In this document: positions 18,755-64,000 of the stretch, one piece after another
Position numbering within the stretch: the first letter of the stretch is position 1
Layout: the number at the start of each line of letters is the position of its first letter
Source of the DNA: Tolypothrix bouteillei VB521301
Lineage (GTDB): Bacteria; Cyanobacteriota; Cyanobacteriia; Cyanobacteriales; Nostocaceae
Assembly: GCF_000760695.4 (NCBI RefSeq)
Contig: NZ_JHEG04000001.1
Location: forward strand, 1,458,717-1,522,716
Length of the DNA: 64,000 bases
Direction: 5' to 3'
The notes under the pieces: model-generated
Told to the model about the DNA's origin: nothing
Seen by the model: the letters and a program-made list of their open reading frames with translations, nothing else
Database searches by the model: none
Made by a program: the position numbers and the translations under genes

Positions 18755-18798
18755 TTTGAAAATATGAATCGTTAATATTTATAAATAATTAAGTACTT

Positions 18799-19245
18799 AT
18801 GAGTGACAACCAAAACTTGCGACCCGTTGAGATTTTGCTCGTAGAGGACTCATATAGTGATGCCAATCTCACTATCAAAAGCTTGGGTAAAGCTAGTATC
18901 GCCAATAACTTACATTGGGTAGAAGATGGTGAAGCAGCAATTGAGTTCTTGCGACATCAAGGTGAGTATATCACAGCTACACGTCCAGATCTGATTTTAC
19001 TCGACCTTAATCTTCCGGGATTGGATGGGCGGGAAGTCCTCGCAGAAATCAAAGCCGATCCCGATCTCAAACGTATCCCTGTTGTGGTTTTGACAACGAG
19101 TGCAGATGAACAAGATGTACTTAAATCTTATGACTTAAACGCCAACTGCTATATTACTAAACCTGTTGACATTCACCAGTTCCTACAAATCGTGCATTTG
19201 ATCAATGATTTTTGGCTAGCAGCAGTTAAGTTACCACCTAAATAA
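18799..19245 (+). CDS. Rcp1-type response regulator
   Basis: A stand-alone receiver domain of 148 residues. [12 protein letters not shown] gives the acidic pocket, Asp69 in [13 protein letters not shown] is the phospho-acceptor, TTSA near residue 95 the switch Thr, and Lys in YITKPVD the conserved lysine. There is no output domain. The SDA motif after the acidic pair and the overall length are those of Rcp1, the partner of cyanobacterial phytochrome Cph1. It sits between the PAS kinase (44 bases upstream) and a receiver-PAS-kinase (10 bases downstream), so it likely shuttles phosphate between them. Confidence 0.93.
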
Positions 19246-20839: not shown

Positions 20840-20857
20840 ACCCACACACCTAAATGT

Positions 20858-21403
20858 ATGTCTATCGAGCGAGTTCCCCCCAAGCACTTTCCCAAAGTTG
20901 AGTTTGGACGGCGAGGTATGGCGTTGGGCGTTGATTTTCTCATTGTCTGGGTAGTCAGCTCTTTGTTGGGTGGTTCTCAACTCGGCGTTCACATTGTTCA
21001 AATATTTGTCTTTATTGTAGGTTGGGCAATTGTACGCGTTGTCGTACCTTACAACAATCAAGGACAAAGTTTGGGGCGCTATGCTTTTGACATTAAGGTG
21101 CTAGAAGTGGAAAGCACTCGCGTTCCCGATTTACAAACATTTTTGCGGCGAGAAGGAATCGTCTGTTTGAGTGCGCTGTTGGTTTCTATTACTCTCAGTA
21201 ACATCATACGCAATCCCACTGCTATACTTCTATTGATTCCCTTAGCTATTGATTGCGGTGCGGCTTTCTCCGACACGCAGTTTCGCCAAACTTTGCATGA
21301 CCGTTTTGCCAAGACTATGGTGATTTCCTCGCGTCGCGGCTATTCGCTTGATATAAAAGTTAAGCAAATAGTTGATAAAGTGCGACGTAATATGAGACAA
21401 TAG
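20858..21403 (+). CDS. RDD family membrane protein
   Basis: A 181-residue integral membrane protein. [15 protein letters not shown] near 22-36 carries the Arg and Asp that name the RDD family, followed by membrane segments at about 28-48, 52-68 and 104-130. [12 protein letters not shown] at about 144-155 is the usual RDD C-terminal motif. Function of RDD proteins is not settled; some are linked to ion homeostasis. It starts 18 bases after the receiver-kinase and is followed by rpmG after 44 bases. Confidence 0.85.
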
Positions 21404-47272: not shown

Positions 47273-49870
47273 ATGACAACCTCTCAGGAGAGGATTATCC
47301 CGACCGATCTGGGGAACGAAATGTCCCGGTCTTATTTAGAGTACGCCATGAGCGTGATTGTAGGTCGGGCGCTGCCAGATGCCAGGGATGGTCTGAAACC
47401 TGTGCATCGTCGTATCCTCTATGCTATGCATGAATTGGGATTGACCGCAGATCGCCCTTTTCGTAAATGCGCTCGTGTAGTAGGGGAAGTATTGGGTAAA
47501 TATCACCCTCACGGTGACACAGCGGTCTATGACGCTCTAGTGCGAATGGCGCAAGATTTTTCCATGAGATCGCCCTTAATTGCAGGGCATGGAAACTTCG
47601 GTTCTATAGACAACGATCCACCTGCGGCAATGCGATACACCGAATGCCGCTTGCAAGCTTTAACGAGTGACGCTCTACTACAAGATATTGAGTCAGAAAC
47701 TGTCGATTTTGTAAATAACTTCGACGGTTCCCAGCAAGAACCAACTGTTTTGCCCGCACGGGTTCCACAGCTGCTACTTAATGGTTCTTCCGGGATTGCC
47801 GTGGGTATGGCAACCAATATTCCCCCTCATAATTTGGGTGAGTTGATTGATGGATTGGTAGCACTGATTCACAATCCAGATATTAACGATACTCAATTAA
47901 TGCAGTATATTCCCGGTCCTGATTTTCCAACAGGTGGTCAGATTTTGGGTACCGGACCAATTAAAGAAGCCTATACTATAGGGCGCGGTTCAATAACCAT
48001 GCGCGGTGTGGCACAAATTGAAACTATAGAACAAAGGGGAAGACCGGATAGAGAAGCAATAATTGTTACTGAATTGCCTTACCAAACTAACAAAGCAGCA
48101 CTGATTGAAAAAATCGCTGAGTTGGTAAATGACAAGAAAATAGAGGGAATTGCAGATATTCGAGATGAGAGCGATCGCGATGGTATGCGAATCGTGATTG
48201 AACTCAAACGGGACGCTTATCCCAGGGTTGTCCTCAACAATCTCTACAAACAAACGCCAATACAAGCCAACTTTGGGGCGAATATGCTGGCGCTTGTCAA
48301 TGGCGAGCCGCAGGTTCTCACCCTCAAGCAATTCTTGCAAGTCTTTCTAGATTTCCGTATAGAAGCCATCACCAAACGCACGCAGTATGAACTGCGGAAA
48401 GCTGAAGAACGCGACCATATTTTGCAAGGGTTATTGATTGCTCTCTCGCACTTAGATGAAATTATTAACTTAATTCGCCATGCTCCTGACGCGCCTACAG
48501 CAAAAGGAGAGTTAGTCTCAACCTACGGACTCTCTGAAGTGCAAGCCGATGCAATTTTGCAGATGCAACTGCGGCGTTTGACAGCTTTGGAAGCAGATAA
48601 AATTCGCTTGGAACACGAAGAATTACAAGCCCTCATTACCGATCTGCGCGATATTCTCGCACGTCGAGAGCGAATTTTGGAAATCATTGAGAATGAGGTG
48701 AAGCATCTCAAAGAGAAATACGCAACGCCTCGCCGTACAGTCATTTCGCCTTTAGAAGGGGAAATAGATGATCGGGACTTGATTGCCAATGAAAAGGTTG
48801 TCATTTTAGTGACAGAACAAGGCTATATCAAACGGATGCCGGTCAACACCTTTGAGGCGCAAAGCCGCGCAACTAGAGGCAAAGCCGCAGCAAAGATGAA
48901 AGAAGATGATGGGGTTGAGCATTTCCTGACTTGCTGCGACCACGATAGTGTTTTGTTCTTTAGCGAGCGAGGTGTTGTTTACTGCCTGAAAACCTATCAA
49001 ATACCCGTAAGTTCTCGTACCAGCAGGGGAACACCAATTGTCCAATTGCTACCCGTTCCTAAAGAGGAAAAAATTACCTCAATAGTTCCCGTAACGGAGT
49101 TTAGCAGCGATGAATATTTGGTCATGCTGACTAACGGTGGCTACATCAAGAAAACTGAATTGGCAGCGTTTAGTAATATTCGTGCCAATGGCTTGATTGC
49201 TATTTCTCTAGAAGAAGGGGATCAACTCCGTTGGGTGAGAAGAGCAAGAGTGGAAGATAGCGTTATCATTGGCTCGCGCCGGGGGATGGCAATTCACTTT
49301 AGATGCAATCACGAACAACTGCGTCCTTTGGGACGGGCGACTCGTGGGGTAAAAGCTATGAAACTGCGCGATAAAGATGAACTGGTGGGAATGGATATTC
49401 TTCCAGCAGCGATTCTTGCTACTTTAAATACAGACATAGAAACTGAAATCGAGGAAGTCGAAACGGAAGAACTCCTTGAGGTTGATGCAAATGAAGAATC
49501 TGTAGAAGTTGCAGGTAACGGCAGTACTGGTCCGTGGGTGTTGGTGATTACAATGGGAGGGTATGGCAAGCGCGTACCGGTTTCCCAGTTCCGCCTGCAA
49601 AAACGTGCCGGTCAGGGTATCATGGCGACTAAATTCAAAAACCGCAAAATCAAAGACCAATTGGCAACCTTACATATCGTAAACAATGATGATGCGGAGA
49701 TTATGATGGTCACCAGTCGCGGTATCATCATTCGTCAGGCGGTGAATGCGATTTCAATTCAATCGCGATCGGCAACTGGGGTACGAGTGCAGCGCCTTGA
49801 CGAAGATGACGTTATCACGGGAGTGGCAATAGTTCCCCCCGATACTGTTGATGCAACCGAAGCAGAGTAA
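47273..49870 (+). CDS. gyrA: DNA gyrase subunit A
   Basis: Breakage-reunion subunit of a type IIA topoisomerase, 865 residues. The catalytic tyrosine is Tyr122 in [10 protein letters not shown]. The tower/coiled-coil region spans about 360-480. The C-terminal beta-pinwheel carries QKRAGQG, a GyrA box variant (Q-R/K-R-G/A-G-x-G), which favours gyrase over ParC. An acidic insert (about 725-745, [18 protein letters not shown]) interrupts two pinwheel blades. The lnt gene overlaps its last 20 bases. Cyanobacteria often carry a second GyrA-like gene, so the symbol is likely but not exclusive. Confidence 0.94.
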
Positions 49871-51545
49871 GCAGACCAGACAAGGAGATATGGAGACACG
49901 GGGACGCAGGGAATTTTTGAAAGCAACTCTCCACGTTCTAAAAAACCGTGTCTTCATTTCCTTTGCCAGCGGAATTTTGATGGGGTTGACGGTTGCACCT
50001 TTTGGTGCATGGTTCTTCACATGGATTGCCCTTGCTCCCCTATGGGCAATCGTTGTTAATTCTGCACAACGAAATAACTCATCTCCCCTTCACCTCATCT
50101 CCCCCTCCCTAGCCTGGGGTATTGGTTATCACGGAATTGCCTTATCTTGGATTACCGGAATTCACCCCATGACTTGGATGGGAGTTCCTTGGTTGGCAAG
50201 TTTGGCGATCGCTTTATTTTGCTGGACGTTCATTACCTTGTGGGGAGCAGCATTAGTTGCTACTTGGGCAACTTGTTTCTCCTTGGTTTTAAATTTTCAA
50301 GTTTGGACGCACCGTAAATTCAAATCCTTTTCCCCCTCCGCTCCTCCCCCTCTCGTTCGCGTTTTGATTGGTACGGGTATCTGGTGCGGATTAGAAGCAC
50401 TTTGGAGTGCGGGACCGTTGTGGTGGACTTCTCTTTCTTACACGCAAAGCCCGCAGAATCTTGTCATTTTACATTTAGGTCAACTGTCTGGACCGAGTGC
50501 GGTGACTGCGGCTATTGTGGCAGTGAATGGTTTGCTTGCGGAAGCATGGATAAACCGTAGAGGCGCAGAGAACACAGAGAAAAGAACGCAATTTCTGACC
50601 TCTGCGCCTCTGCGCCTCAGTTATTTAGTTTCTGCGGTTGCATTATTCATTTTGCTCCATCTCATTGGTTTGAGTTTATACAGCCGTCCTTTAGTTCAGC
50701 AACCAGAAGCAGCGTTGAAAGTGGGGATTGTTCAGGGGAATGTTCCTAATGAAATCAAGCTTTTTCGAGAAGGTTTTCGTCGTGCTATTGAAGGTTACAC
50801 CACAGGTTATGTCACCCTAACAGATCGAGGTGTTGATGCCGTGCTAACTCCAGAGGGTGCTTTGCCTTTTTTCCAAAACGAGATCGTGACAAGCTCTTTA
50901 GTAGACGCGGTGCGGGAAAAAAAGAAAGTTGCTTGGATTGGAGGTTTTTATAGAGATGGGCGCAGTTATACAAACAGCTTGTTTACAGTTACGGGCAGTG
51001 GTGTGATTTTTAGCCGCTACGGCAAAGTTAAGATGGTACCGATTGGGGAGTATGTTCCTTTCGAGGAAATTTTGGGTGGTCTGATTGACCGTTTGTCACC
51101 TTTGAAGGAACACCAGGTTGCAGGGAAGCAAAATCAAGTATTTGACACCCCTTTTGGTCGTGCTATTGTCGGAATTTGCTATGAATCGGCTTTTTCCGAA
51201 CATTTCCGCCGTCAAGCTGCGGTAGGGGGAGAATTTATACTCGGACCTTCTAATGATGCTCACTACAGTGCTGCTATGCCGACGCAGCATCACGCACAGG
51301 ATATTATGCGGGCTATTGAAACTGATAGATGGGCGGTGAGGGCAACAAATACGGGATATTCAGCTTTTGTCGATCCTCACGGTAGGACATTGTGGATATC
51401 GGGACACAATACTTACGAAGTTCATGCAGAAACAGTGTATCGTCTTCAAAGTAAGACTTTATACGTGCTTTGGGGTGATTGGTTGACGCCCTTATTGTTA
51501 GGATTGGGCGGTTTGGGATGGTTTGTGGGAAATCGGTTTTCGTAA
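49851..51545 (+). CDS. lnt: Apolipoprotein N-acyltransferase
   Basis: Membrane enzyme that adds the third acyl chain to lipoproteins. About six hydrophobic segments in the first 250 residues precede a nitrilase-fold domain with Glu in TPEGALPF, Lys in [14 protein letters not shown] and Cys in [13 protein letters not shown] final membrane segment lies near the C-terminus. The ATG at 49851 overlaps gyrA; a TTG precedes it and another ATG at 49890 has AAGGAG only 2 bases away. The first 30 residues and the segment [15 protein letters not shown] appear encoded by dispersed repeat DNA inserted in frame. It is likely co-transcribed with gyrA. Confidence 0.92.
50560..50610. repeat. Dispersed repeat inside the lnt coding region
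   Basis: GAGGCGCAGAG (50560-50570) and CTCTGCGCCTC (50600-50610) form a perfect 11-bp stem around a 29-base loop. The CTCTGCGCCTCTGCG motif is the same family as the interior of the element at 1316-1449. Here it lies within the lnt frame without breaking it, in a loop between membrane segments. Confidence 0.7.
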
Positions 51546-51606: not shown

Positions 51607-51699
51607 ATGAGTAAGAAACGGTTTTACAAGCAGCTTATTAAAAAGGCTGATGAACGCTTCGACAATCATTTGCTCCAGTTAAAGGAGGAGAACGAATGA
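51607..51699 (+). CDS. 30-codon frame coupled to HTH antitoxin gene
   Basis: ATG at 51607 opens a basic 30-residue frame (MSKKRFYKQLIKKADERFDN and a short end) whose TGA overlaps the ATG of the next gene (ATGA). The overlap implies translational coupling. AAAGGAGGAGAACG near its end is the Shine-Dalgarno for the downstream gene. It could be a small leader or the remnant of an upstream toxin gene; no family is recognised. Confidence 0.35.
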   Translation: MSKKRFYKQLIKKADERFDNHLLQLKEENE

Positions 51700-52052
51700 C
51701 AATGACTAAAGGGAAAATCTTGCAAGATATATGGGATAATTTGCCAGAAGATCGTAAGCAACGAATACAGGATCGGGCTGAAGAATTAGAAGCTGAATAT
51801 CTCTGTTTGCAGGAACTGCGAAAAGCCGCAGGACTAACGCAGGCGGAAATTGCACGAAGCTTGCGAATGCCGCAATCTAACGTGTCACGTCTGGAAAGAG
51901 AGTCTGATATGTTGCTGTCTACTTTGAGGAACTACATTGATGCTATGGGAGGCAATCTAACTATTGTAGTTGAGCTTCCGAATAAGCCACCTGTTCGTCT
52001 AAATACATTAAGTGACCTTGTAAGCCAGGACGTAGACAGTAAAATATGTTAA
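51696..52052 (+). CDS. XRE-family HTH protein, antitoxin-like
   Basis: A 118-residue protein with a helix-turn-helix at about 40-75 (LRKAAGLTQAEIARSLRMPQSNVSRLE). MLLSTLRNYIDAMGGNLTIVVELP after it is typical of HigA-like antitoxins paired with RelE/HigB toxins. An excellent Shine-Dalgarno, AAAGGAGGAG, precedes the ATG. No toxin gene of normal size lies on either side, so it is an orphan in this window. A regulator outside a toxin-antitoxin role is possible. Confidence 0.83.
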   Translation: MTMTKGKILQDIWDNLPEDRKQRIQDRAEELEAEYLCLQELRKAAGLTQAEIARSLRMPQSNVSRLERESDMLLSTLRNYIDAMGGNLTIVVELPNKPPVRLNTLSDLVSQDVDSKIC

Positions 52053-52778: not shown

Positions 52779-53393
52779 TTAGTCGTTTCGCCTTTCGACT
52801 CCCGTATTTCCATAATTTTGTCTGTTGTTTCCTCTTATGCAAGATCCTGCGCCAGCATAGGAGGGATCGGCGAAAACAGCTAAGGTATTATATTCGGGCG
52901 CACCTTCTCCGTAGTTGACTCGGAAGGTGTACAACTTTCTTTGTCCTTGCTTTTCAGTCACCACGGTCAGCAGTGTGGAGTTCGTGTTGGGAAGCCCCGG
53001 AATGTTAAGTTTTTGAATTCGTCTGAGGTGAATGACACTTGCTGCTGAGCTTTCACAATCTCCTGTTTCTGACCCTTGTTGACCAAACTGCAAGCACATA
53101 GGACCATCAAAATCTAATGTAACTTTGGACGGGTCATCTAACCAAACTTTTTTAATTGTCTCGCCAGCTTGAATAAAGCTTAAGTTCGTCCCTTGTTGAA
53201 ACCAAACTGTAATATCGGGTATTGCGCCTCCTAAACCCTGAGCTTGGCAGGAAAATATGGAACGCAAGACAGCGTTATTTGCTAAGGCACTACTTGCTAG
53301 CAATAACATTGCCACTGAGAAAAAGAAGGAAGCTAGAGGGAGGAAATAAGGATTGTTTGGGGTGTTTTCTGGAATGTTGGTCTTGTCGTTCAT
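52779..53393 (-). CDS. VirB9/TraK-like secretion protein (putative)
   Basis: An exported 204-residue protein from the ATG at 53393; a GTG at 53417 would add 8 residues. A signal peptide is seen at about 13-38 (ending SSALA). The beta-rich rest has VWFQQGTNLSFIQAGETI, KVWLDDPSKV, VIHLRRIQKLNIPGLPNT and LTVVTEKQGQRKLYTFRV. That order of strands, ending in a threonine-rich L-V-T patch and YxFxV, is like the N-terminal domain of VirB9/TraK outer-membrane components. It lacks a VirB9 C-terminal domain, as TraK-like short forms do. It is last in the cluster, 319 bases after the VirB10-like gene. Confidence 0.6.
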   Translation of the reverse strand: MNDKTNIPENTPNNPYFLPLASFFFSVAMLLLASSALANNAVLRSIFSCQAQGLGGAIPDITVWFQQGTNLSFIQAGETIKKVWLDDPSKVTLDFDGPMCLQFGQQGSETGDCESSAASVIHLRRIQKLNIPGLPNTNSTLLTVVTEKQGQRKLYTFRVNYGEGAPEYNTLAVFADPSYAGAGSCIRGNNRQNYGNTGVERRND

Positions 53394-53607
53394 AGTAGCT
53401 TTTTGATTTTCAAGCACACCCTGTAGCAGATGGACGTGGATATTTTGTTTTTACGTTAGGTGTATCAGTCGCTGAAATTTTTCGACCTTACAGCAATTTT
53501 TGAGTTTAATAAAACCAATCTTATAGGGTGTAAAGCAGCGCGTTACCCAGAGTAGTGCCTTGTCCTGGAGTTACCCCCGTTGAAGCAACTGTGGAGTATC
53601 CTCGCCC

Positions 53608-53628
53608 GCCCTTTGCTCTGGAAAGGGC
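53608..53628. repeat. Hairpin between VirB10-like and VirB9-like genes
   Basis: GCCCTTT-GCTCTGG-AAAGGGC is a perfect 7-bp stem in the 319-base gap between the two genes. No T-run follows on the minus strand, so it may be a processing or attenuation signal, or only a dispersed repeat. The gap shows no gene. Confidence 0.4.
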
Positions 53629-53712
53629 AGAGATGCCCATTCCACAAAAAATTATGTGATTTATTCACTTGAAAATTATACTCATAAAGTTTGCGTATGA
53701 ACTTGGTAGCCG

Positions 53713-55350
53713 TTAAAATTGCGTAGCTCGATCGACTCTAACTTCCATTTTTGTGCCTGCTGGTAGATACCAAATATTAGTTCTCTGTGCTCTTTGAGAC
53801 TGTGTCTGTTGAATGCGTCGGGTTAATTCCGGAACGATAGATCTCATACCACCATCAGCAACCGCAGCTGCAATATTGTCTTGGTTCTCATCCTCACAAA
53901 TATAATCGCGATCGTTGTTACTATTTATGTATTCATAACGGCACGTTCTCCTTTGACGGTTAATAATTTCTCCCGCCTTTTGAGCACCTCCAAAGGCAAA
54001 TAGCATCACATCACGCCCGATAGACGATCCTCCTTTACCGGAATACTGCGTTGCCACTGGAGGTCTACCACCCGCCCCACTAACTGTCAATGCATCTTGC
54101 GGTACACTCTTTTCTACACGCTCGCCATTTTCTTGCCAGATCACTTTATCTACATCAAGATCTACCAACCCACCTTCAGAAATAGAACTCACTTTAGTGT
54201 GTAGTTCTGCCTTTGCTGGTATAACGACAGAACCGTCTTCAGCTTTTAATGGTTCCCTAAGTTGCACCACAAATACTTGATTGTTACTATTGTTCTCACG
54301 ACCTCTATTGACCGATCCATATAGACCTTTGACTAAAGTAGCCTTGGCACTACTTCCTACCACTGTCGATTTAGATGCTTTGGTTCTCCTCTGTGCTACC
54401 AGGCTATCTGTCTCTGAAGGCGCTATTCTAACAGGAGGTCTGGGAGTGACTAGAGGTTGTGGTGCTGGTATATCATTAGGTCTGCTAGCGATTGTTGCAT
54501 TGCTGGTATTTTGATTATCGGGAGTAGATACTTGACCGTAGCTACCCAATTTCGCCAATCTTGACCATTCCTGAAGGGGATCTGATGTTGGTGGTGAAGT
54601 AAATTCTACAGATGACCCAAGTGGCGGCGGAACTGGTGGGAGTTCGGCTGGTAGAGTCGGTGTTCTGGCTGCAACTTGAGGCGCTCTAACGGGGCGATCG
54701 ACTGTTACAATTCTATCTCGATAAACAGTTCTCACTACGGGTGAGGCTGGTATCCTTTGTACTATCACCCTTGGTTTTTCTCGGGAAGAATCTCGCGATG
54801 CCAACTCTGGATTCGATCTCGCCGCAATTCGAGAGGTGTCTGGTTTTAAGGTTCTGAGTTGTTGTTGTGCTGCTTTGACGGCTGCTGCTTGTTCGGTGAG
54901 AGCAAGTTTTGATTTCAGTGCTTCATTTTCTCTTTCAAGCTGCTCTAGGCGTGATTCTGGTTTGGGTTGCGGTGGTGCTTCAGTTATTGAACTGCGATTT
55001 TGACTGCTAGGCTTATTGTTGGTACCGCTCATTAACTGTGTCAAAAACGTACCAGCGACGATAACTACAGTCAAAGTAGCAGCCCCCACCAACCCCAACT
55101 TGGCAAAGGGATTGGACGATAGGGGTTGAGTTGTTTGAAGTTCTTGTGGTTCTTGTGGTTCAGAAAGGGATGGCTGTCTTACAGGAACTTCACCCCCGTC
55201 AGAAGAAGATGGAGATTCTTCTTCCAAACCAACTAATCTTGCCATCCGTGCTTCTAGATCGGAAGAGTCTTCAGGTTGAAAATCACCCGAATTATAAGGG
55301 GTATCTTCTGAATCACTAAAAGAGTGAGAGGGAGTTTGGTATGTAGTCAT
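53713..55350 (-). CDS. VirB10/TrbI-like protein
   Basis: A 545-residue bitopic protein that in type IV secretion systems spans both membranes. It has an acidic cytoplasmic tail (1-80), one membrane segment (about 85-107), a coiled coil (about 130-165), a long Pro/Arg-rich periplasmic linker (170-330) and a C-terminal beta domain (about 335-545). The last contains VFVVQLREPLKAEDGSVVIP, the VIPAKAEL motif region of VirB10/TrbI, and PAGTKMEVRVDRATQF at the end. This is the clearest T4SS core homologue besides the ATPase. Confidence 0.82.
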   Translation of the reverse strand: MTTYQTPSHSFSDSEDTPYNSGDFQPEDSSDLEARMARLVGLEEESPSSSDGGEVPVRQPSLSEPQEPQELQTTQPLSSNPFAKLGLVGAATLTVVIVAGTFLTQLMSGTNNKPSSQNRSSITEAPPQPKPESRLEQLERENEALKSKLALTEQAAAVKAAQQQLRTLKPDTSRIAARSNPELASRDSSREKPRVIVQRIPASPVVRTVYRDRIVTVDRPVRAPQVAARTPTLPAELPPVPPPLGSSVEFTSPPTSDPLQEWSRLAKLGSYGQVSTPDNQNTSNATIASRPNDIPAPQPLVTPRPPVRIAPSETDSLVAQRRTKASKSTVVGSSAKATLVKGLYGSVNRGRENNSNNQVFVVQLREPLKAEDGSVVIPAKAELHTKVSSISEGGLVDLDVDKVIWQENGERVEKSVPQDALTVSGAGGRPPVATQYSGKGGSSIGRDVMLFAFGGAQKAGEIINRQRRTCRYEYINSNNDRDYICEDENQDNIAAAVADGGMRSIVPELTRRIQQTQSQRAQRTNIWYLPAGTKMEVRVDRATQF

Positions 55351-55378
55351 TGTATTATGTATGTAGATAAGCTTTACT

Positions 55379-56065
55379 TTAAGAGCACTTTCGATCTGTT
55401 ATCTCACATATATTGTATATTTCCAGTTTTGCTTCACCGAGGCGATGTACTGCTAAATCCAGAGGAAGTGGGACTTTGGGTAGCGATGTTATCTGTTCGT
55501 CTACTGCTTGAACTAAAATTTGTTTCCGAAAAGGAGAGGTATCTCCTAAAGGGTCAGCACTTGTAAAAACTATGTGATTGCCAATTATCTCTACCTTCCA
55601 CTTACCATCCTCACCCTCAACCTTTGTTGGTTCAGAGATTCTTTGTACCACCAACACAGATTCAGTTCCTTTATTAATATTTCCTGCTTGATTTTCTGGA
55701 ATTAATTTATTAACTTCTAGCTCGAATCTTTGCCTCGCCTGACCTGTTAGCAATTGAGAACTCAATTGCCAGACTGTTCTGGGCGGCTGTTTTTGCGACC
55801 AGGTCAGCATTAAGGTCATGGTTTCGCCCACAAAGCGTCGAATCGTCGCTGGGTTTCGCTCTAAATTCTGTTTGGGGTCTGCTGTTATGGCACTACCATC
55901 AGCAAGTTGCACCAAACTTTGAGTTGTATTTCTACGATTCAACTGCTGCAACATCGAACCATGATACATAAGTACTAGCAAAGCTAACAGATTTAGACCG
56001 AACGTTGCTACTGCTAACAGTGGTAATATGTTTGTTTTTTTGTTTTCCTGTTTAAGTAACTGCAT
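55379..56065 (-). CDS. VirB8/TraE-like protein, second copy
   Basis: A 228-residue bitopic protein: short basic cytoplasmic tail, membrane segment at about 14-36, then a periplasmic alpha/beta domain. LVQLADGSAITADPKQNLER and PATIRRFVGETMTLMLTWSQ align with the neighbouring 277-residue protein. WKVEIIGNHIVFTS is like a VirB8/TraE core strand. It ends 28 bases before the VirB10-like start. The position and topology support a VirB8-like inner-membrane scaffold. Confidence 0.62.
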   Translation of the reverse strand: MQLLKQENKKTNILPLLAVATFGLNLLALLVLMYHGSMLQQLNRRNTTQSLVQLADGSAITADPKQNLERNPATIRRFVGETMTLMLTWSQKQPPRTVWQLSSQLLTGQARQRFELEVNKLIPENQAGNINKGTESVLVVQRISEPTKVEGEDGKWKVEIIGNHIVFTSADPLGDTSPFRKQILVQAVDEQITSLPKVPLPLDLAVHRLGEAKLEIYNICEITDRKCS

Positions 56066-56114
56066 TTAGTATTCATTATTTAATTCGATGTTTTCTCAGA
56101 CTAATAAATGTCAT

Positions 56115-56948
56115 TTATCTAATAAAGCTTTCAGAATTTTCTATATTTTCTTGGCAAGAATTATTTCCTGTTGAACCTCCATATCCATCTAGCAAACACA
56201 AATTACGTATTTCAGATATTTCCATCTTTTCAGCACGGATTGCGTAAACTGCTTTTTGCAAGTTTGTCATCAAGTCGGCTTGTGGATATCCAAATGTATT
56301 AACTGCTTTCACAATCACATCTTTATTAAAAGGAACTATTACTTTTTTATCTTCTTGAAAGCGCTTCTTTTGCACGAGATCTGCAACTATACCAACTCGC
56401 CACAACCCAGGCTCTATTTTTTCAGGACGAGAAACTTGTTTGATAACTAACTGCCCTGACATGGCTTGGCTGGGGTTGTTAGAGAAGACTTCAAGTGGGG
56501 TTAGGTCTGCAATTTGTCTTAAAAAATCTTGGCGTAAATCTTCTGATAAGGCAAAACTGGCAATCCAACTGCTTGTTGCAACTTTCTTGTTGAAGCCTTG
56601 TGGCGTTTTAATAGAGATTCCTTCATCTGGTAGGGGTTTTGTCGCTTGTTCTACGGTTTGTACTGGTAGCGTTCCCGACCAGTTAAACAAGGATGCCATT
56701 GTGTTGGTCACGAATTGGCGAATGGCTTGTGGTTCTCGCTCTAAATCTTCAGCTTCAGTAATAGCGATCGCTTTACCATCAATGAGTTGTACAAAGGTAG
56801 GAGATTTTTCCAAACTGAGTTTGCGAATAGTCAATCCTTGAACGATCAGTAGAAATATCACGAATAGATGCAAACCGAAGGTGAGGAAGGCAAAGGCTCC
56901 CAAAACGCTCCCAGTTCGTTTTTGTTTTTTTTCTAGTAAACTTACCAT
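56115..56948 (-). CDS. VirB8/TraE-like protein, first copy
   Basis: A 277-residue protein with the same plan as its downstream neighbour: basic tail, membrane segment at about 16-41, periplasmic domain. FVQLIDGKAIAITEAEDLER and PQAIRQFVTNTMASLFNWSG are clearly paralogous to the 228-residue protein. It carries an insert (about 100-125) and a longer Cys/Ser/Asn-rich tail. GLWRVGIVADLV is the likely core strand. Gap to the next gene is 49 bases. Tandem duplication of a VirB8 gene is unusual. Confidence 0.6.
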   Translation of the reverse strand: MVSLLEKKQKRTGSVLGAFAFLTFGLHLFVIFLLIVQGLTIRKLSLEKSPTFVQLIDGKAIAITEAEDLEREPQAIRQFVTNTMASLFNWSGTLPVQTVEQATKPLPDEGISIKTPQGFNKKVATSSWIASFALSEDLRQDFLRQIADLTPLEVFSNNPSQAMSGQLVIKQVSRPEKIEPGLWRVGIVADLVQKKRFQEDKKVIVPFNKDVIVKAVNTFGYPQADLMTNLQKAVYAIRAEKMEISEIRNLCLLDGYGGSTGNNSCQENIENSESFIR

Positions 56949-57118
56949 CGATTCATCCCCTTTCCCAATCTTCTCCAGCCTTTGTTTTGGTAGCCTCTGT
57001 TGTTAACTTTGCCCGATCGCCTGCTATCAATACTACTTGGAGTTAGTCTTTATTATAGGTATACAATCCAACATATCGCCATACCGATTTGATGGGAGAT
57101 TTTGGGAATTGCTGTCTG

Positions 57119-57165
57119 GGCGATCGCTTCGCGCTTCGGCGCAAGCCGTACCCAGATCGCTCTCT
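57119..57165. repeat. HIP1-containing repeat between cluster genes
   Basis: In the 231-base gap between the VirB8-like and VirB6-like genes, GGCGATCGCTTCGCGCTTCGG followed by GCGCAAGCCGTACCCAGATCGC forms an imperfect palindrome of a dispersed cyanobacterial repeat. No gene is supported in the gap. Confidence 0.45.
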
Positions 57166-57179
57166 AGTATACTCACACC

Positions 57180-58229
57180 CTAAACCCTGTCCCTCACTAA
57201 CAAAGTCGTACTGCTGATAGTGTTGAAGACTGCTAGTCCGCCAACACCAGCCAAAACCAAAGATAAAATTGGTGCTAATATTCCCAAAAAAATGATAAAC
57301 CACATTAAATCTGGATCTGCACTGACATCTTCTGCAGGTCCGTTAATAATTACCGCTGCCGTTAACACAGCAATAATACTGAATGAAATTTTAGCAATTC
57401 CGGCGGATAAAAACCCTGTCAGCCAAGCAAAAATTGGTTTTCCAGATACAGGAAGCAATGAACCACCCACCGCTAGCGGTCCCAAGACTGCCAGCAGAAG
57501 CATTGTTGATTCTATCAGATTTTGGAAAGCAAATTGTAAGGAAATTAAAAAACTTTTGATACTTGTTTGTACTGTCGCACCTACGAAAGAGTTTAATGCC
57601 AGTTCCGATTCATTTCCAGGATTATCTATAACTAAATTCACTTTAGTTTCAAGTCTATTTATCCAATTTTTATCACCATATAAACTTCTATATTCCCCCC
57701 AGAGATAATCAATTTTTCTCCGAGCTTCTGTGAAACATTGAGTTTGCTGTACGCCAGTCAGTGTCTGACAGGGACGCAAGTAAGAGCCAACAATTTCTTC
57801 AGCAATGCTCAAATTGAGTGCTTGCTGGTAAGTTTGATTGCTGTCGCCTGCTTGCACGACTTGCTGATTCACATTATTGATAAAATTCCGCAACCCTAAT
57901 GTCAGATTGGATAGTATGGTTCCATTTCCAGGATTAGCTAACAGTATAACTACAATAAATGGCCAAATCAAAGCTGATATCGGTCGAGAATATTCGTTAT
58001 CTAAGACATCTCTCAGCCATTGCATCATGAATAAGAGCAAAGTTCCGACTGCAAAGAAGATACCTAAATTTGTTAGCGAACCATACAAATTATTATTCGT
58101 ATTATTTTGTAATAAATCCACCCATTGACTGTTCCAGCTATCAGCAAGACTTTGTGTAGTTGTTGTCCCCCCGTTAAGAATATCATTCACAACAATTTGT
58201 GCGAAAAAGTTTAAACTATCCAGCCACAT
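57180..58229 (-). CDS. VirB6/TrbL-like membrane protein
   Basis: A polytopic 349-residue protein with hydrophobic segments near 52-70, 84-99, 227-255, 275-296 and 308-337. Between them is a polar, probably periplasmic, loop (about 100-220) with two Cys (CQTL, QCFTEA). The SLQFAFQNLIESTMLLLAVLGPLAVGG region resembles the long central segment of VirB6/TrbL channel proteins. GWLTG-type and glycine-rich C-terminal helices fit too. Assignment rests on topology and position between VirB5-like and VirB8-like genes; sequence identity to known VirB6 is not shown. Confidence 0.62.
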   Translation of the reverse strand: MWLDSLNFFAQIVVNDILNGGTTTTQSLADSWNSQWVDLLQNNTNNNLYGSLTNLGIFFAVGTLLLFMMQWLRDVLDNEYSRPISALIWPFIVVILLANPGNGTILSNLTLGLRNFINNVNQQVVQAGDSNQTYQQALNLSIAEEIVGSYLRPCQTLTGVQQTQCFTEARRKIDYLWGEYRSLYGDKNWINRLETKVNLVIDNPGNESELALNSFVGATVQTSIKSFLISLQFAFQNLIESTMLLLAVLGPLAVGGSLLPVSGKPIFAWLTGFLSAGIAKISFSIIAVLTAAVIINGPAEDVSADPDLMWFIIFLGILAPILSLVLAGVGGLAVFNTISSTTLLVRDRV

Positions 58230-58436
58230 TTCTACTCTCCATATCTCACTCCTTACTTTTGATAACAGGCGAGACGCCTATCGTAAACAACTCCTCTGAT
58301 TCCTCTTGTCCTCTCTTTCCCAGCTAGAACCTAAGAATAATGTCTCAAGCAAGGTTCTGTCTCACATGGATCGTAGTTTTCCTCTCGTTCCCTCTACCCA
58401 GGCTCAAGCTGACAGGAGAGTATGGAGATTCATGGA

Positions 58437-59324
58437 TCATTGGTCATCAGTGACTGTTGATGAAACCTGACTTCTAACTCCTAGCAAATCAGCTTGAGAA
58501 GTTGCTCTCAAAAGTTGCGCCGCCTCTGCAGATGCATCAACTCTTCTAGCACGATTTGCTTCTTCCATCTGCTGGGAAATATTTGCCAGATTCAAATTTG
58601 AATATTGCTGAAACTGATTTCCTTGTATTGTTAGCCCCAAAGTTTCCCCAAGTATTTTGGATTGCTCGCGCTGAATGATGAGGTTTTGTAACTGTATGTT
58701 TGCTTGAGTTACATTTGCACAATTGGTAGCATTACTAGCAGCACCACCAGTAGCACCATTAGTAGCAGTGCTTACAGCTTGACAAGCAGAGGTGACAATT
58801 TGATCTAGGATGCTTTTACTTTCTTCAGCATTTTCGACAGCTTTCTCAATAGTTTCAACGGAATTTTCTGTACTTTCTAACTTTGCTTTTGACCGTTCTT
58901 GTCCGCGTTCACCCAAAATGCTGTCCACAACGCCGAGAGTCAATTGGCGGGTAATTTCATTAGCAGCTATTGTTGCTTGTACCCCTGGATTATTCTCAAA
59001 AGTGCCTGAAGTATTGTCAAATATTTGTTCTCGAAAGCGGTTTCCTGCGGCAATTGGGTTCGGTATTCTACCTTCTTGAATATAATTGGATGCCGAATAA
59101 TCGATCGCTGCTTTAATCTCTGATTCTACAACTCTTGAGGGGTTGGGAATATTATCATAATTATTGCCGGGATATGTTTCATTTCCCAAGTAAGACTGTA
59201 AATCTTTAGCATACTCTTGAAAATCCAGCCAAACTTTCCCCAAAGATGGTTGGGAGAATTGTGCCATAGCTGGTAATATTCCTATTAATGCCAAGCAAGA
59301 AGCAAAAAGGATAGTTTTTTTCAT
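58437..59324 (-). CDS. VirB5/TrbJ-like secreted protein
   Basis: A secreted, mostly alpha-helical protein of 295 residues from the ATG at 59324. MKKTILFASCLALIGILPAMA is a clean Sec signal peptide. The rest has a long helical middle (SVETIEKAVENAEESKSILD) and a C-terminal helix hairpin with QLQNLIIQREQSKILGETLG and ANISQQMEEANRARR, the pattern of VirB5/TrbJ pilus-tip proteins. Two cysteines (near 180 and 200) bracket an Ala/Thr/Asn-rich stretch. An in-frame ATG 22 codons upstream lacks a signal-peptide start and is less likely. It ends 207 bases before the VirB6-like gene. Confidence 0.6.
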   Translation of the reverse strand: MKKTILFASCLALIGILPAMAQFSQPSLGKVWLDFQEYAKDLQSYLGNETYPGNNYDNIPNPSRVVESEIKAAIDYSASNYIQEGRIPNPIAAGNRFREQIFDNTSGTFENNPGVQATIAANEITRQLTLGVVDSILGERGQERSKAKLESTENSVETIEKAVENAEESKSILDQIVTSACQAVSTATNGATGGAASNATNCANVTQANIQLQNLIIQREQSKILGETLGLTIQGNQFQQYSNLNLANISQQMEEANRARRVDASAEAAQLLRATSQADLLGVRSQVSSTVTDDQ

Positions 59325-59392
59325 AAATTTGTAGAAATAGAGGTTAAGGAAGAGAGATCTTATCGTGACCGATCTGTATTTTGCCCGCATTC

Positions 59393-62140
59393 TTAAGATC
59401 CCCTTAGTGAAGCGACTAACTGGCGTGCAAACACAGAAATTGCTTCATACTTATCACTGTAGCGCTGCATAGTTTCTGTACGTGCCGATTGTTCGTGAGG
59501 GTTATTAGCCACAACTGCCAATTGTTCAAATCCGGGATAATAACGACAGAAAGTATAAATTCCATTGTCATCTAACAACCATTGGCTGTAAACGCCCTCT
59601 TTGCGAGGGAAAAAACTTTCTGAGGCATTGCGAACAATAATTTCTCGAGGATATTTTAAAATACTCGTGAAACTATCAACAGCTACTGGTTGGATGCGAC
59701 CAATTAATCGCGTTGATAGGTTTTGCAAAATTTTAGAAGATGCTTTGGATTTGGCAATGGTATCTGGGTCTTGTGCTGATAAAATAACCCTAATACCCGC
59801 TTTGGCTCCGTTGGCACAGATTCTTCCTACCAAGCTGGCAATTTGCTCGAATTCAAAGAGAATTGGAGCTTCATCAATAAAGAATATTGAAGATGGACTG
59901 CTTAAGGCGCGTCGCAATGCTGCTGAATATGCACTTAAGGAGAGTATTGCAGCATCTTCATTATCGGAGAGGTTTCTCAGAGCAAAAACCAAAAGGGGTG
60001 CATCGGTGGGGAAGCTAGAGGGCGCGGAAATTGCTTGTCCTACTCGGCTTGAAAGCCAAAACCGCAAGCGCAGATGAATTTGATTGAGTGCATCCTCAAC
60101 TCTACCTCCTATAGAATCTAGCTGTAGGTGTTCCGGAGAGCAAAATACGAGAAAATCTTGTAAGGTAGGGGTTTTTTGCCATGCTTGGGAGCCAAAGCCC
60201 TCTTCTATAGCTTCTCGATAGCGCTGTTTGATACCTTCATCAGTAAAGAAAGCTCCTAAAGCTAAATTGAGAATGGAGCGCACTGTTTGTGTTAAAAGTT
60301 GATTTTCAGATGATGAGCCTAAAATCATGGTCATGAGAGCTGATTCTAGGAATCCTACATAATCAAGCATGCGATCGCGCTGTTCGTCTCGAGAAAGCGA
60401 TCGCAAATCTGGCTGTTCAAACAAATTATTCGATTGTTTGGAAATATCAAAATACGCCCCCTTCCTTCCCATGAATTCTGTATAGTCGGTAAAGGTAGAA
60501 GTCCCATCGGGTTTGGGATAATCCAAGGCTACTACAGGAATATTGTGCGCTAAAGCTTGAGTTAAAATACCGGATACCAATACCGATTTACCAGCGCGAG
60601 TTGTCGCAAACAGCGCCAAATTTTTATGCTGGTTAAACAAATCTAAATGAACGGGTGTTCCCCCTTCTTCTGCTATCAATTCAAAGCCTCGTTTATCGCC
60701 TGCTTTCGTTAGAGTTAAAGGCATTAATCCTTGCACTTCGCTAGTTAAATAAAGCTGGCGTCGGTTGAAAGGTTTTGCTAGCAACCCTTCCCACACTATA
60801 GGTAGTGTTTGCAGCCAAATTTTCCAAGCATATTCTGTTTCTCTCACGACTTGCGCCGGACGTTGAAAACAACTTTCTATATACTTTGTCGCCTCGTCTA
60901 ATTTTTCCAGATTTGGCCGATGGACTAGAATAGCTACAGATGTATAAATCGGTACGGCTCCTTCATACAATTGCTCTTGCGCCGCTACCGATTTCCTCAG
61001 CTTTAATTGAGCGTTGACATCAATTGTTTTGCTTTTTTCTTGCGCCGTCAGTGCTGTTATATTCGACTGCTTCAAAACCCTTTGCAAAGTTGTTTTTACT
61101 AAAGCGGGGTTAGCAGCACTCAACTGACAAAAAATTTCTGTATCAACAACTGTTTCTCTTGCAAGTAGTTCCCATAAATAGCGCAATTGAGCAGATTTAT
61201 TCTGCCACCCGCCGGGTTTTTCCAAAAATGTCATCACGCCAACGTAGTTATTGTTAACATGAACCCAACGGCGATCGGCGCATGGTATGCTAGACTCCAT
61301 CAGCAGTGTTGTACTGTGGAGATTATCTATCAGTAATTTAGTACTTGCTAAGTCCGAATAAACTTGTTCGTGCAGTCCATTTTCATCTAAGATTAGCAAC
61401 TGAGGAATATTTATGGGCTGGGTGTCATTAAATCGCCTCCAAATTTCCTGCCAAAGCTCGACAGCATTCAAAGGCTTAATATTCAATCCCATTTGATTGG
61501 AGAGAAGTTGCTCCCAGCGCCGAAACCCTTCTTTATAAGCAGTCGCGATCGTAGCTTCAGTTTGCTCGTTTCTGACATCTACAAAATCACCTTTGAATTT
61601 TAACCACCACTGTTCGCCTCTCGCTAACAGTTTTTCTATCCAATCATTCGTTGCTGTCGCACTTGGTTCAACAGTGTACGTTACATAAACCCGGAGAAAT
61701 TTTGGTTTGCGGATTCCAGCACGAGTCAGTTCTTTAATACGAGCCCGTTCCGCCATGAGCAAATATTTTATATCAGGTGTTGGAGCGCGTTTTATCAGAG
61801 AAGCCAGTTCTTGTTGTCGCTGTTTATCGGAACTAAAAGACCCCATGTGAAAGGTAATTCTTTCTTCCCCAGGGATATCTTTTAAACCAACCTCAATATT
61901 ATGGCAAATTGTCTCGATTTGATCTGTGGTTAATGTAGTATGAATACCTTGGCATTCAAAGCCAAAAACAAAGCAGAATCGATCTTTTTGAGTGCCCTTT
62001 GTCAAAATATAAGCACCAATATCTCTACCATCAAGCGCAACACGTAGCATTGTAGCTAAATGTAAGGCATCTTCAAAAGGTGTGAGTCTACTTTCTCGAC
62101 CCGCGATGCCTACGCTTTGTTTTCCTATTTTTTCTTTCAT
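59393..62140 (-). CDS. VirB4/TraC-like ATPase
   Basis: A 915-residue ATPase. The N-terminal half (1-480) is the variable VirB4-type domain. Walker A is FATTRAGKS at 511-519, and Walker B SIFFIDEAPIL (Asp756, Glu757). SAQDPDTIAKSK near 788-799 is the sensor region, and the C-terminal part ends with a helical tail. The layout is that of VirB4/TraC/TrbE, the energising ATPase of type IV secretion. A long N-terminal domain without membrane segment suggests a TraC-like, peripherally bound form. It overlaps the upstream gene by 53 bases, implying coupled translation. Confidence 0.85.
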   Translation of the reverse strand: MKEKIGKQSVGIAGRESRLTPFEDALHLATMLRVALDGRDIGAYILTKGTQKDRFCFVFGFECQGIHTTLTTDQIETICHNIEVGLKDIPGEERITFHMGSFSSDKQRQQELASLIKRAPTPDIKYLLMAERARIKELTRAGIRKPKFLRVYVTYTVEPSATATNDWIEKLLARGEQWWLKFKGDFVDVRNEQTEATIATAYKEGFRRWEQLLSNQMGLNIKPLNAVELWQEIWRRFNDTQPINIPQLLILDENGLHEQVYSDLASTKLLIDNLHSTTLLMESSIPCADRRWVHVNNNYVGVMTFLEKPGGWQNKSAQLRYLWELLARETVVDTEIFCQLSAANPALVKTTLQRVLKQSNITALTAQEKSKTIDVNAQLKLRKSVAAQEQLYEGAVPIYTSVAILVHRPNLEKLDEATKYIESCFQRPAQVVRETEYAWKIWLQTLPIVWEGLLAKPFNRRQLYLTSEVQGLMPLTLTKAGDKRGFELIAEEGGTPVHLDLFNQHKNLALFATTRAGKSVLVSGILTQALAHNIPVVALDYPKPDGTSTFTDYTEFMGRKGAYFDISKQSNNLFEQPDLRSLSRDEQRDRMLDYVGFLESALMTMILGSSSENQLLTQTVRSILNLALGAFFTDEGIKQRYREAIEEGFGSQAWQKTPTLQDFLVFCSPEHLQLDSIGGRVEDALNQIHLRLRFWLSSRVGQAISAPSSFPTDAPLLVFALRNLSDNEDAAILSLSAYSAALRRALSSPSSIFFIDEAPILFEFEQIASLVGRICANGAKAGIRVILSAQDPDTIAKSKASSKILQNLSTRLIGRIQPVAVDSFTSILKYPREIIVRNASESFFPRKEGVYSQWLLDDNGIYTFCRYYPGFEQLAVVANNPHEQSARTETMQRYSDKYEAISVFARQLVASLRGS

Positions 62141-62465
62141 AATGAGACTCTAGAAAACTTTTATAACGAGCGGTGCCTCTTGTCCAGGTCGGAACACCTA
62201 TAAACTTACTCAAAAACCGCCAACTTCTGCCCCCCGTTAATATCCACCAAGTTCCCATACCCCATCCAGCAATTAAGATGGTCCACAACCATTTTTGCCA
62301 TTCATCTCGGAATGCACCTCCAAAAAAACCGTTAACAATCATGTAGGAGAGAAGGGCAATTATCGTCCAGGGAAAGATTTGATCGGCAGGAATTGGTCCT
62401 AAGGAAGGTTGGCTTCCCAGAATTTGGTTGACAGGTCGAAATTCTTTGTCTCGGTCATCAGCCAT
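62088..62465 (-). CDS. VirB3-like small membrane protein
   Basis: A 125-residue protein with two close hydrophobic segments (about 31-50 and 57-76) and a very basic tail (YERKNRKTKRRHRGSRK). VirB3/TrbD proteins are small, have two N-terminal helices and lie directly before virB4, as here. The gene overlaps the ATPase gene by 53 bases. Sequence alone would not identify it; size, topology and place carry the call. It starts 15 bases after the VirB2-like gene. Confidence 0.55.
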   Translation of the reverse strand: MADDRDKEFRPVNQILGSQPSLGPIPADQIFPWTIIALLSYMIVNGFFGGAFRDEWQKWLWTILIAGWGMGTWWILTGGRSWRFLSKFIGVPTWTRGTARYKSFLESHYERKNRKTKRRHRGSRK

Positions 62466-62480
62466 AACGCATTCTCAAAC

Positions 62481-63038
62481 TTAGCCAATGATAAAAGATG
62501 TCAACACATCAGCAATGGTAACAGCAATAACTACCAATAGGGGTGTTCTGGCTACGACTTGCCAATCTTCATCTTTACGAACGGCATTCACAACGCCAAT
62601 AAGAGCAACAGCAATGTAAAGTAAGTAAAGCGCTCGTATAACATTAAACACCAAGCTCACTGCTGCGGCGGTTCCACTTCCTTGTGGAGACCCCTGAGTT
62701 AAATTGTTTTTGAAAAAATTTTCTGCTTTACCAAAAAATTGGGCGGCGGCGGGAACGCTGAAGTAGTCTATCCAAAAGAAGCTAAGAATTGCAGCGATCG
62801 CCAGAGTTTGTAAAAAAATTAGCCAATGTCTGGATATACGTGTCTGCTGCCCTATTTGCTGAATAACTGTTGTTGCTAAACCAATGAAAAGCAAGCAAAA
62901 CAGTAAAACCGGGCTTTTCCAACAAATAACAGTCAAGAAAACAGCACAGGTAAGCAAAAATGGCACAGATGCTAAGAAGTGAGCGCACCAACGTTTCACT
63001 CGATAAAATGATTCTTTTTCAAAATTTTTTACAGACAT
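62481..63038 (-). CDS. VirB2/TrbC-like pilin with N-terminal extension (putative)
   Basis: First gene of the cluster, 185 residues. Residues 71-99 look like a signal peptide with an AAA-Q cleavage site (FSVPAAAQFFG). The remaining about 86 residues form a small loop and two membrane helices (about 123-152 and 161-184) joined by NAVRKDEDWQ, the layout of mature VirB2/TrbC pilins. Upstream of the signal-like helix there are two further hydrophobic segments (20-40 and 43-61), which pilins normally lack. No good Shine-Dalgarno is seen. It may instead be an inner-membrane protein of other function. Confidence 0.5.
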   Translation of the reverse strand: MSVKNFEKESFYRVKRWCAHFLASVPFLLTCAVFLTVICWKSPVLLFCLLFIGLATTVIQQIGQQTRISRHWLIFLQTLAIAAILSFFWIDYFSVPAAAQFFGKAENFFKNNLTQGSPQGSGTAAAVSLVFNVIRALYLLYIAVALIGVVNAVRKDEDWQVVARTPLLVVIAVTIADVLTSFIIG

Positions 63039-63594
63039 GGACTAACTTTCCCAACCTTTTTATTAGTAACAACTTGTACGCTGCTGCGCCTTTTTGTTAG
63101 TCTACCCTTCAAGTCAAGGCAGATCTCTCATCCTGCCAAGTAGCATGGCATTTTTTTTGCTTGTATGTTATTATACATTATTAAAGATAAAATAAGAAAA
63201 CTGGTAAACAATATAACATACTATCTGAAGAATTTTTTCAGAATGGATCGCCTTGTCTATTCTAAAGCAACTATCCAATAATTTAAGATGGAAGACAGAA
63301 GCATTGGATATAGAATCAAAAAAAACGTCATAGACTAGTCTCAGATTCTATAAAATATTATTCTTTAGTTACTTGAAAAGAGAAAGACGCAGTTATTAAT
63401 AACTATATTACCTTCTCTTAACCTAAGAGGATATTTGTTAAGTCTCAATTCATACTTACTTTTGCAACTAGTAGTATCTAAGAGTTACAGACAAAATAAT
63501 TATGAAATCGGTTTTGGCAATTATTATGCAGTTCAAATAGCAATACGACACAGCAATCAAGTTGAATTCTATGCTTCCTCATATAGAATTGGCA
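63039..63594. other. Upstream region of the secretion-like cluster
   Basis: A 556-base AT-rich gap between the amidase gene and the first cluster gene, both on the minus strand. It must hold the cluster promoter, but I cannot place boxes with confidence. A small TGCCA-AGTAGCA-TGGCA hairpin is at about 63136-63151. No tRNA, integrase site or terminal repeat that would suggest a mobile element boundary is visible. Confidence 0.4.
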
Positions 63595-64000
63595 TTAGTA
63601 ACCAGATGGGTAAGAGAAAGCACCAATGACTCGATCTAACTCAGCCGCTATCGCTAACAATTCCATCTCACGCCACCGCTTCCCAACAATTTGGATTCCA
63701 ATCGGCAAATCATTCTGAGTTTGGCCGATGGGGATGACCACAGCAGGATGTCCGCTAAGATTAAATGGCATGGTGTAAGCCCCGTTAGCGACACCATAGG
63801 GATAGAGTTTGCCATCGATGTCAACAGCACTCCAAGACGGACGATGGGTAAAGGTAGGAGTTGCTGCTACTGGGCAAAGCCAGACATCCCATGGTTCCAA
63901 TGCCTCATCCATCTGGGTAGTAAAGCGATCGCGCTCGGTGAGGGCCTCAAAATATCCTTTTAGGCTGGGATTAAACAATTCTGGAAGTAAGCGGCTGAAA
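63595..64000 (-). CDS. Amidase signature family enzyme, C-terminal part
   Basis: The reading frame stays open to the window edge, so only the last about 135 residues are present. LSGHPAVVIPIGQTQNDLPIGIQIVGKRWREMELLAIAAELDRVI is typical of the C-terminal end of GatA/amidase-family proteins. The catalytic Ser-Ser-Lys part lies outside the window. It could be an amidase or a GatA-like subunit; substrate unknown. It ends 556 bases upstream of the secretion-like cluster and is transcribed in the same direction. Confidence 0.9.
   Translation of the reverse strand, partial: FSRLLPELFNPSLKGYFEALTERDRFTTQMDEALEPWDVWLCPVAATPTFTHRPSWSAVDIDGKLYPYGVANGAYTMPFNLSGHPAVVIPIGQTQNDLPIGIQIVGKRWREMELLAIAAELDRVIGAFSYPSGY

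Follow-up and report, generated by a model that had tools for sequence, protein, structure and literature searches.

The chromosome of Tolypothrix bouteillei VB521301 carries, at positions 52779-63038 of the window (the whole stretch of 64,000 nucleotides that was analysed), a nine-gene minus-strand operon which, as judged from sequence profiles and the folds of predicted models, is a type IV secretion system (T4SS), and which, by sequence comparison, is a member of a conserved chromosomal clade with a duplicated VirB8, akin to the MPF_C plasmids. The operon does not appear to be mobile, and we lean, with some confidence, towards regarding it as a domesticated T4SS that has been adopted by the host and acts on periplasmic or surface substrates without a coupling protein. 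The genes run in the order B2, B3, B4, B5, B6, B8a, B8b, B10, B9 and, together with the upstream region and the chromosomal neighbours, are laid out as follows.

63039..63595, minus strand: operon upstream region, containing, some 390 bases ahead of B2, a weak TTAA array that resembles a Pho box
62481..63038, minus strand: B2, VirB2/TrbC-like pilin precursor (from position and AQF conservation)
62088..62465, minus strand: B3, VirB3-like small membrane protein (from position and topology)
59393..62140, minus strand: B4, VirB4/TraC ATPase (from Walker motifs)
58437..59390, minus strand: B5, secreted VirB5-like protein (from position; signal peptide in the sequence)
57180..58229, minus strand: B6, polytopic VirB6/TrbL-like membrane protein (from topology and position)
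56115..56948, minus strand: B8a, VirB8 (from the fold of the predicted model)
55379..56065, minus strand: B8b, second VirB8 (from hhalign comparison with B8a)
53713..55350, minus strand: B10, TrbI/VirB10 (from PF03743)
52779..53417, minus strand: B9, short VirB9/TraK-like protein with the N-terminal domain only (from the fold of the predicted model)
47273..51545, plus strand: gyrA and lnt, convergent chromosomal neighbours (from Pfam)

On what evidence does the identity of each component rest? The initial annotation had read these genes as nine virB2-B10-like open reading frames on the minus strand, and this reading is confirmed by sequence profiles for VirB4 and VirB10 and by the folds of predicted models for B8a and B9, the two proteins covered by structure modelling and fold comparison; B2, B3, B5 and B6 are named from their position in the operon, B3 and B6 also from their topology. 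The VirB4-type ATPase with Walker motifs that had been recognised from the start has both motifs intact (Walker A, ATTRAGKS; Walker B, FFIDEA), with no variation in the key residues among 20 aligned sequences; PF03135, the VirB4 model of Pfam, has no match in the whole genome because the VirB4 family involved here is too divergent. The proposed VirB10/TrbI-like protein likewise stands, given that PF03743 matches 27 of the 28 members of the B10 family, although the Tolypothrix B10 itself scores under the curated cut-off. Fold comparison became necessary because six family alignments, used as profiles against PDB sequences, had retrieved nothing relevant. The AlphaFold2 model of B8a (mean pLDDT 80.6) finds VirB8-family structures on top, followed, within about one Z unit, by NTF2-like folds, and B8b aligns with B8a in hhalign with a probability of 100 and an E value of 2.9e-51. 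Thus, of the structural matches on which the initial annotation had staked its interpretation, those for VirB8 (by fold) and VirB10 (by TrbI profiles) were found, whereas B6, a conserved family across the relatives, yielded no telling match to Pfam or to PDB sequences.

The remaining small components can be described in similar terms. B2 has a long leader, an AxA|QFF cleavage-like site and then a part of about 75 amino acids with two hydrophobic segments; its Pfam scan gave no telling match, and the AQF site is invariant in all 28 aligned rows, the plasmid forms among them. B3, the gene of which overlaps that of VirB4 by 53 bases, is present in each of 80 related loci (the best 80 of 143), and the start of B5 is probably near 59324. 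A VirB7-like small lipoprotein was sought in the gaps of ten loci, and none was found.

The synteny comparison that the initial annotation had proposed reveals close orthologues, with the gene order kept, in most genomes of the family. In a set of 60 genomes with a complete match list, VirB4 orthologues with 74-96% identity are present in 25 of 35 same-family relatives (two in one genome, G022) and in none of the 24 genomes from other families; more broadly, 192 of 217 family genomes contain some VirB4, with identity from 100 down to 79% among the matches listed. The loci with named records are the best 80 of 143 and accordingly lean to close relatives (two of them, L077 and L078, share one genome); they come from Rhizonema, Nostoc, Calothrix, Westiellopsis, Mastigocoleus and others, which leads us to infer that this family, f1, is the heterocyst-forming group. 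Among these best 80, all nine genes are complete and ordered in 69 loci, and of the other 11, ten miss genes only where a contig ends within 1 kb, the last one (L058, Nostoc sp. T09) having an internal deletion that leaves it without B6, B8a and B9. Between the Tolypothrix genome and a same-genus relative, the one pair compared, dN/dS ranges from 0.014 (B3) to 0.248 (B10).

The flanking genes vary with lineage, with lnt and/or gyrA downstream of the operon here and in some other genera; in G005, G009, G017 and G018, some 10 kb separate gyrA from VirB4. The gyrA/lnt neighbourhood is probably the ancestral flank. The GC content of the locus is 40-45% compared to 45-49% in the left flank. The single tRNA gene in the window lies about 21 kb from the operon and, in keeping with the original statement that the window holds no integrase, none was detected among the ten flanking genes scanned. 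A small HTH_37 protein is encoded near the operon, at window positions 51696-52052, and we take it to be, possibly, an orphan antitoxin.

By sequence comparison, the closest relatives of the operon are the MPF_C conjugation systems of cyanobacterial plasmids, an assignment based on the homology of VirB4 and the partner genes and on the same gene order as in cyanobacterial conjugative plasmids. A tblastn search with VirB4 retrieved 114 plasmid records, 89 of these in ten cyanobacterial genera, with 18 further genera represented; among the 40 matches listed, the plasmid VirB4s are 51.8-60.8% identical to the query, the exception being that of Gloeothece verrucosa PCC 7822, with 76%. In ten plasmid-type loci compared (VirB4 53-61% identical to that of the operon), a single VirB8 stretch was found in each, one of these loci (L155) being cut by a contig end at that place. 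The MPF_C plasmids share with the Tolypothrix operon the order B2-B3-B4-B5-B6-B8-B10-B9, but three annotated plasmid loci have one VirB8, which in the operon is doubled, and a C-terminal extension of B9, which the Tolypothrix protein lacks; furthermore, one to two genes after B9, these three loci encode a coupling protein that is missing from the operon. Apart from virB4 and virD4, we take alr7204-alr7212 of pCC7120alpha to be the machine genes of that plasmid. In pCC7120alpha, the reference MPF_C plasmid, the available portion of the published description gives virB4 as alr7206 and virD4 as alr7213 (PMC8600333). In the three annotated plasmid loci that were compared (two from Trichormus variabilis and one from Nostoc sp. 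TCL26-01), all three coupling proteins are matched by PF10412, PF12696 and PF02534, and in one of the three a PF03432 relaxase adjoins the coupling protein. The plasmid operon of Gloeothece PCC 7822 is preceded by a gene (L001:2645-5668) for a 1007-amino-acid DMFA2_C/DUF4082/Big_1 protein, a possible surface partner, with no match in the related loci (the best 80 of 143).

The VirB4 tree contains a branch, with an SH-aLRT support of 100, that splits 27 chromosomal from 10 plasmid-type rows, albeit with a warning from the program that long branches meet. The Gloeothece plasmid VirB4 falls within the chromosomal clade (support 81), which means that this system has also been plasmid-borne. The distances for VirB4 and gyrA are correlated (r=0.49, n=24 genomes; a value reached by 1 of 9999 permutations), and more so when the five genomes of one sub-clade are left out (r=0.70, n=19; 0 of 9999 permutations as high). 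The two trees have 4 of 21 splits in common, and in six cases a split of one tree contradicts a split of the other, both being supported at 90 or above; four of these cases involve members of the sub-clade (G006, G012, G013, G020, G022), which is in strong conflict with gyrA, so that inheritance has not been purely vertical. In those sub-clade loci for which both flanks were retrieved (L147, L150-L153), and in L149 from a genome outside the sub-clade (G030), B9 was not detectable, and hence this gene is not always present. These comparisons point to descent that is vertical in part, along with some transfer; as a species tree, gyrA on its own is weak.

Beyond the family, a search of the 388 genomes of the order gave full-length matches to B8b, with 39-53% identity, in six genomes, namely five from family f8 and a single one from f33; weak VirB8 matches are much more widespread. 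Two VirB8s are encoded in five of these six loci. Three of the f8 loci (L211, L213 and L214, the latter being the Gloeothece plasmid again) possess B2, B3, B4, B5, B6, both VirB8s and B10, but with the order shuffled; L212, cut by contig ends, holds five of these eight genes, and L210 holds seven, a single VirB8 having been detected there. The five f8 stretches showed no detectable B9, and the f33 locus, L215, has nine of the nine genes, in order. None of the six stretches contains a match to a coupling protein. That the gene set is kept although shuffled argues for a function.

Is the operon then a conjugation machine with its mobilisation genes elsewhere? The initial annotation had noted that no relaxase or VirD4 is encoded nearby, and this absence extends to the whole genome: across its 9.95 Mb, neither PF02534 nor a plasmid coupling protein used as query found a coupling protein, and the MOBV (PF01076) and PF03432 relaxase models had zero matches. 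The negative result for the coupling protein is meaningful because PF02534 does detect three of three cyanobacterial plasmid coupling proteins, with 77-82 bits. Two matches to PF10412, just above the cut-off (21 bits), were rejected as coupling proteins, these being a KaiC-family protein and a HAD/ATPase protein in which only the P-loop is matched. The genome encodes one VirB4 of the operon's family. In the 26 family genomes with an operon-type VirB4, the Tolypothrix genome included, coupling proteins are found in 15 of the 15 genomes that encode an additional VirB4 of a more distant kind, as opposed to 0 of 11 without, and MOBV relaxases in 12 of 15 as opposed to 0 of 11. Contig 1 (6.28 Mb) of one genome, G010, carries two of the more distant VirB4 copies with internal stops (1910306-1912996 and 2086430-2089117), which probably are decaying elements, in contrast to the intact locus. 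Taken together, the data support the original notion of a reduced trans-envelope machine without mobilisation genes.

What could such a machine do? The initial annotation had listed movement of DNA, movement of protein and envelope functions, and this list narrows to a role facing the periplasm or the surface, since there is no VirD4 to load DNA or protein from the cytoplasm. In the scenario of a domesticated T4SS, VirB4, the sole T4SS ATPase recognised in the operon, would assemble the channel and probably also a VirB2 pilus, and the machine would handle cargo that has already reached the periplasm or the surface, by a two-step route resembling that of Ptl or ComB. The Ptl system of Bordetella pertussis, which has VirB11 and adjacent substrate genes, resembles the Tolypothrix operon in having no VirD4. 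The VirD4-free T4SSs covered by the accessible part of a recent review are Ptl, which exports a Sec-delivered protein, and ComB of Helicobacter pylori, which imports DNA (PMC12857230). The same source describes the Ptl substrate as periplasmic, as would be the cargo of the operon, and Ptl as lacking VirB5 and VirB1; ComB is listed there with homologues of VirB2-B4 and VirB6-B10, no VirD4, as in the operon, and no VirB5, whereas the Tolypothrix operon has a VirB5-like gene and a doubled VirB8 (PMC12857230).

By analogy with these systems, we rate export or surface display of proteins delivered by Sec or Tat slightly above DNA uptake, on three grounds: PhoX phosphatases, which are of the Tat type, and PstS are recurrent neighbours of the operon; the operon keeps a VirB5-like gene, which Ptl and ComB lack; and competence in cyanobacteria is served by type IV pili. 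Several observations count against domestication for such a role: B9 is without the C-terminal domain of VirB9 and no VirB7-like lipoprotein was found, leaving the outer-membrane pore unaccounted for; the sub-clade conflicts with gyrA, there is a Gloeothece plasmid copy, and L210 has a single VirB8; and ComB needs a distant VirB11, as the available text of one study reports for H. pylori (PMC13395361).

Among the alternatives, a ComB-like uptake system, in which a VirB2 pilus or pseudopilus would bind DNA and VirB4-driven retraction would bring it to the periplasm, for phosphorus scavenging or transformation, would agree with the missing VirD4, with VirB4 as the only ATPase recognised in the operon and with the recurrence of PhoX and PstS as neighbours, including PhoX upstream of B2 in L213; we nevertheless consider it unlikely, given that type IV pili already fill the competence role, that ComB has no counterpart of the VirB5-like gene and that the nine-gene block holds no nuclease or ComE gene. 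Similarly low is the probability that we give to an organelle dedicated solely to adhesion, that is, to filament aggregation, motility or cell-cell contact, with no cargo: the pilin-like precursor with its invariant AQF, the VirB5-like gene and the absence of VirD4 are what such an organelle would be expected to show, but the channel parts, namely the VirB6-like protein, the VirB8s and VirB10, are kept as well. That the operon is a helper machine, the channel of which would be used by plasmids equipped with a relaxase and a coupling protein of their own, we regard as improbable; more distant VirB4s and coupling proteins do co-occur in 15 of the 26 genomes, but the plasmid-type loci examined supply their own machine genes, and the other 11 genomes, that of Tolypothrix among them, keep the operon although no coupling protein was found in them. 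Finally, the idea that the operon is what is left of an integrated conjugative element in decay, for which the ancestry shared with plasmid systems, the lower GC content, the deleted copy in L058 and the plasmid-borne Gloeothece member could be invoked, is very hard to reconcile with the 69 complete, ordered loci among the best 80 of 143, dN/dS well under 1, an lnt-gyrA neighbourhood common to other genera, and a window with no tRNA within 21 kb and no integrase among the ten flanking genes scanned.

Returning to the proposed domesticated T4SS, a hint of its role comes from the neighbouring genes. Of 91 loci, 67 of which have at least 7 kb of sequence upstream of VirB4, 23 encode PhoX or PstS on the upstream side of the operon and one does so downstream. 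With one locus taken per genus and 3.4 to 8 kb upstream covered, there are such neighbours in 14 of 43 genera (13 PhoX, 1 PstS), which are related, so that the cases are not independent, and two of which contribute fragments (one in g71, and one in g12 without an ORF of 80 amino acids). The family genomes have 2.7 PhoX matches each (60 in 22 genomes), and the chance expectation, by a hand estimate for 8 kb in about 7 Mb that ignores the relatedness of the genera, is 0.1 of the 43. The PhoX proteins near the operon form three groups at 45% identity, which implies either repeated origins of the linkage or the sorting of an ancestral cluster. In Tolypothrix, some 6.6 kb, with other genes, separate B2 from the PhoX gene upstream of it; in the f8 relative L213, a PhoX gene is likewise upstream of B2. 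The 11-base TTAA array reaches p<=0.05 in 26 of 89 loci compared to 10.8% of 279 control upstream regions, a count that is inflated by related sequences and is based on approximate shuffles, the number of which was not the same in all tests; with one locus per genus, the threshold is reached in 10 of 43, and the array of the Tolypothrix genome itself is not significant (p=0.075; p=0.09 in the per-genus test). Such Pho-box-like patterns are thus suggestive only in the Nostoc-type lineages.

The PhoX and PstS neighbours thus hint at a link, of a correlative kind, between the operon and phosphate nutrition. Pushed further, they would yield a speculative scenario, which we hold to be possible but doubtful, in which a T4SS that is nearly part of the core genome of heterocyst formers has been re-purposed for phosphorus nutrition: as a pilus or channel that works without VirD4 and is induced along with the phosphate regulon, it would export or display phosphatases of the PhoX type, or import DNA to be used for its phosphorus. 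If true, such a phosphorus-nutrition T4SS would represent domestication for nutrient acquisition in a free-living phototroph, for which we know of no earlier case.

What is already known is that there are MOB-less T4SSs in cyanobacteria; what is apparently new is the conserved, VirB8-duplicated chromosomal system. In the parts available to us, Guglielmini et al. 2011 name cyanobacteria among the environmental bacteria with MOB-less T4SSs, with no description of a locus, its conservation, a VirB8 duplication or a function in cyanobacteria (PMC3158045). A 2016 survey, as far as its accessible text goes, derives protein-secretion T4SSs from MPF_I and MPF_T only (PMC4793230), and the string 'cyanobacteri' is absent from the available main text of a 2025 T4SS review (PMC12857230). 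Our literature search, which covered titles and abstracts, turned up no description of the conserved operon, a mention in papers on T4SS classes being possible. A conserved, chromosomal, mobilisation-free relative of MPF_C amounts to a natural experiment in the conversion of a mating apparatus into a cell organelle, the more so as conjugative cousins persist in some of the same genomes and gene knock-outs are possible in the group.

Some lineage-specific features may be added. Upstream of the operon, Nostoc-type loci (e.g. L060:891-2300) encode an MltA/3D-domain lytic transglycosylase (21 loci) and CemA (19 loci), and in Iningainema tapete (L010) B9 is present in two tandem copies, at 18187-18990 and 20243-21073.
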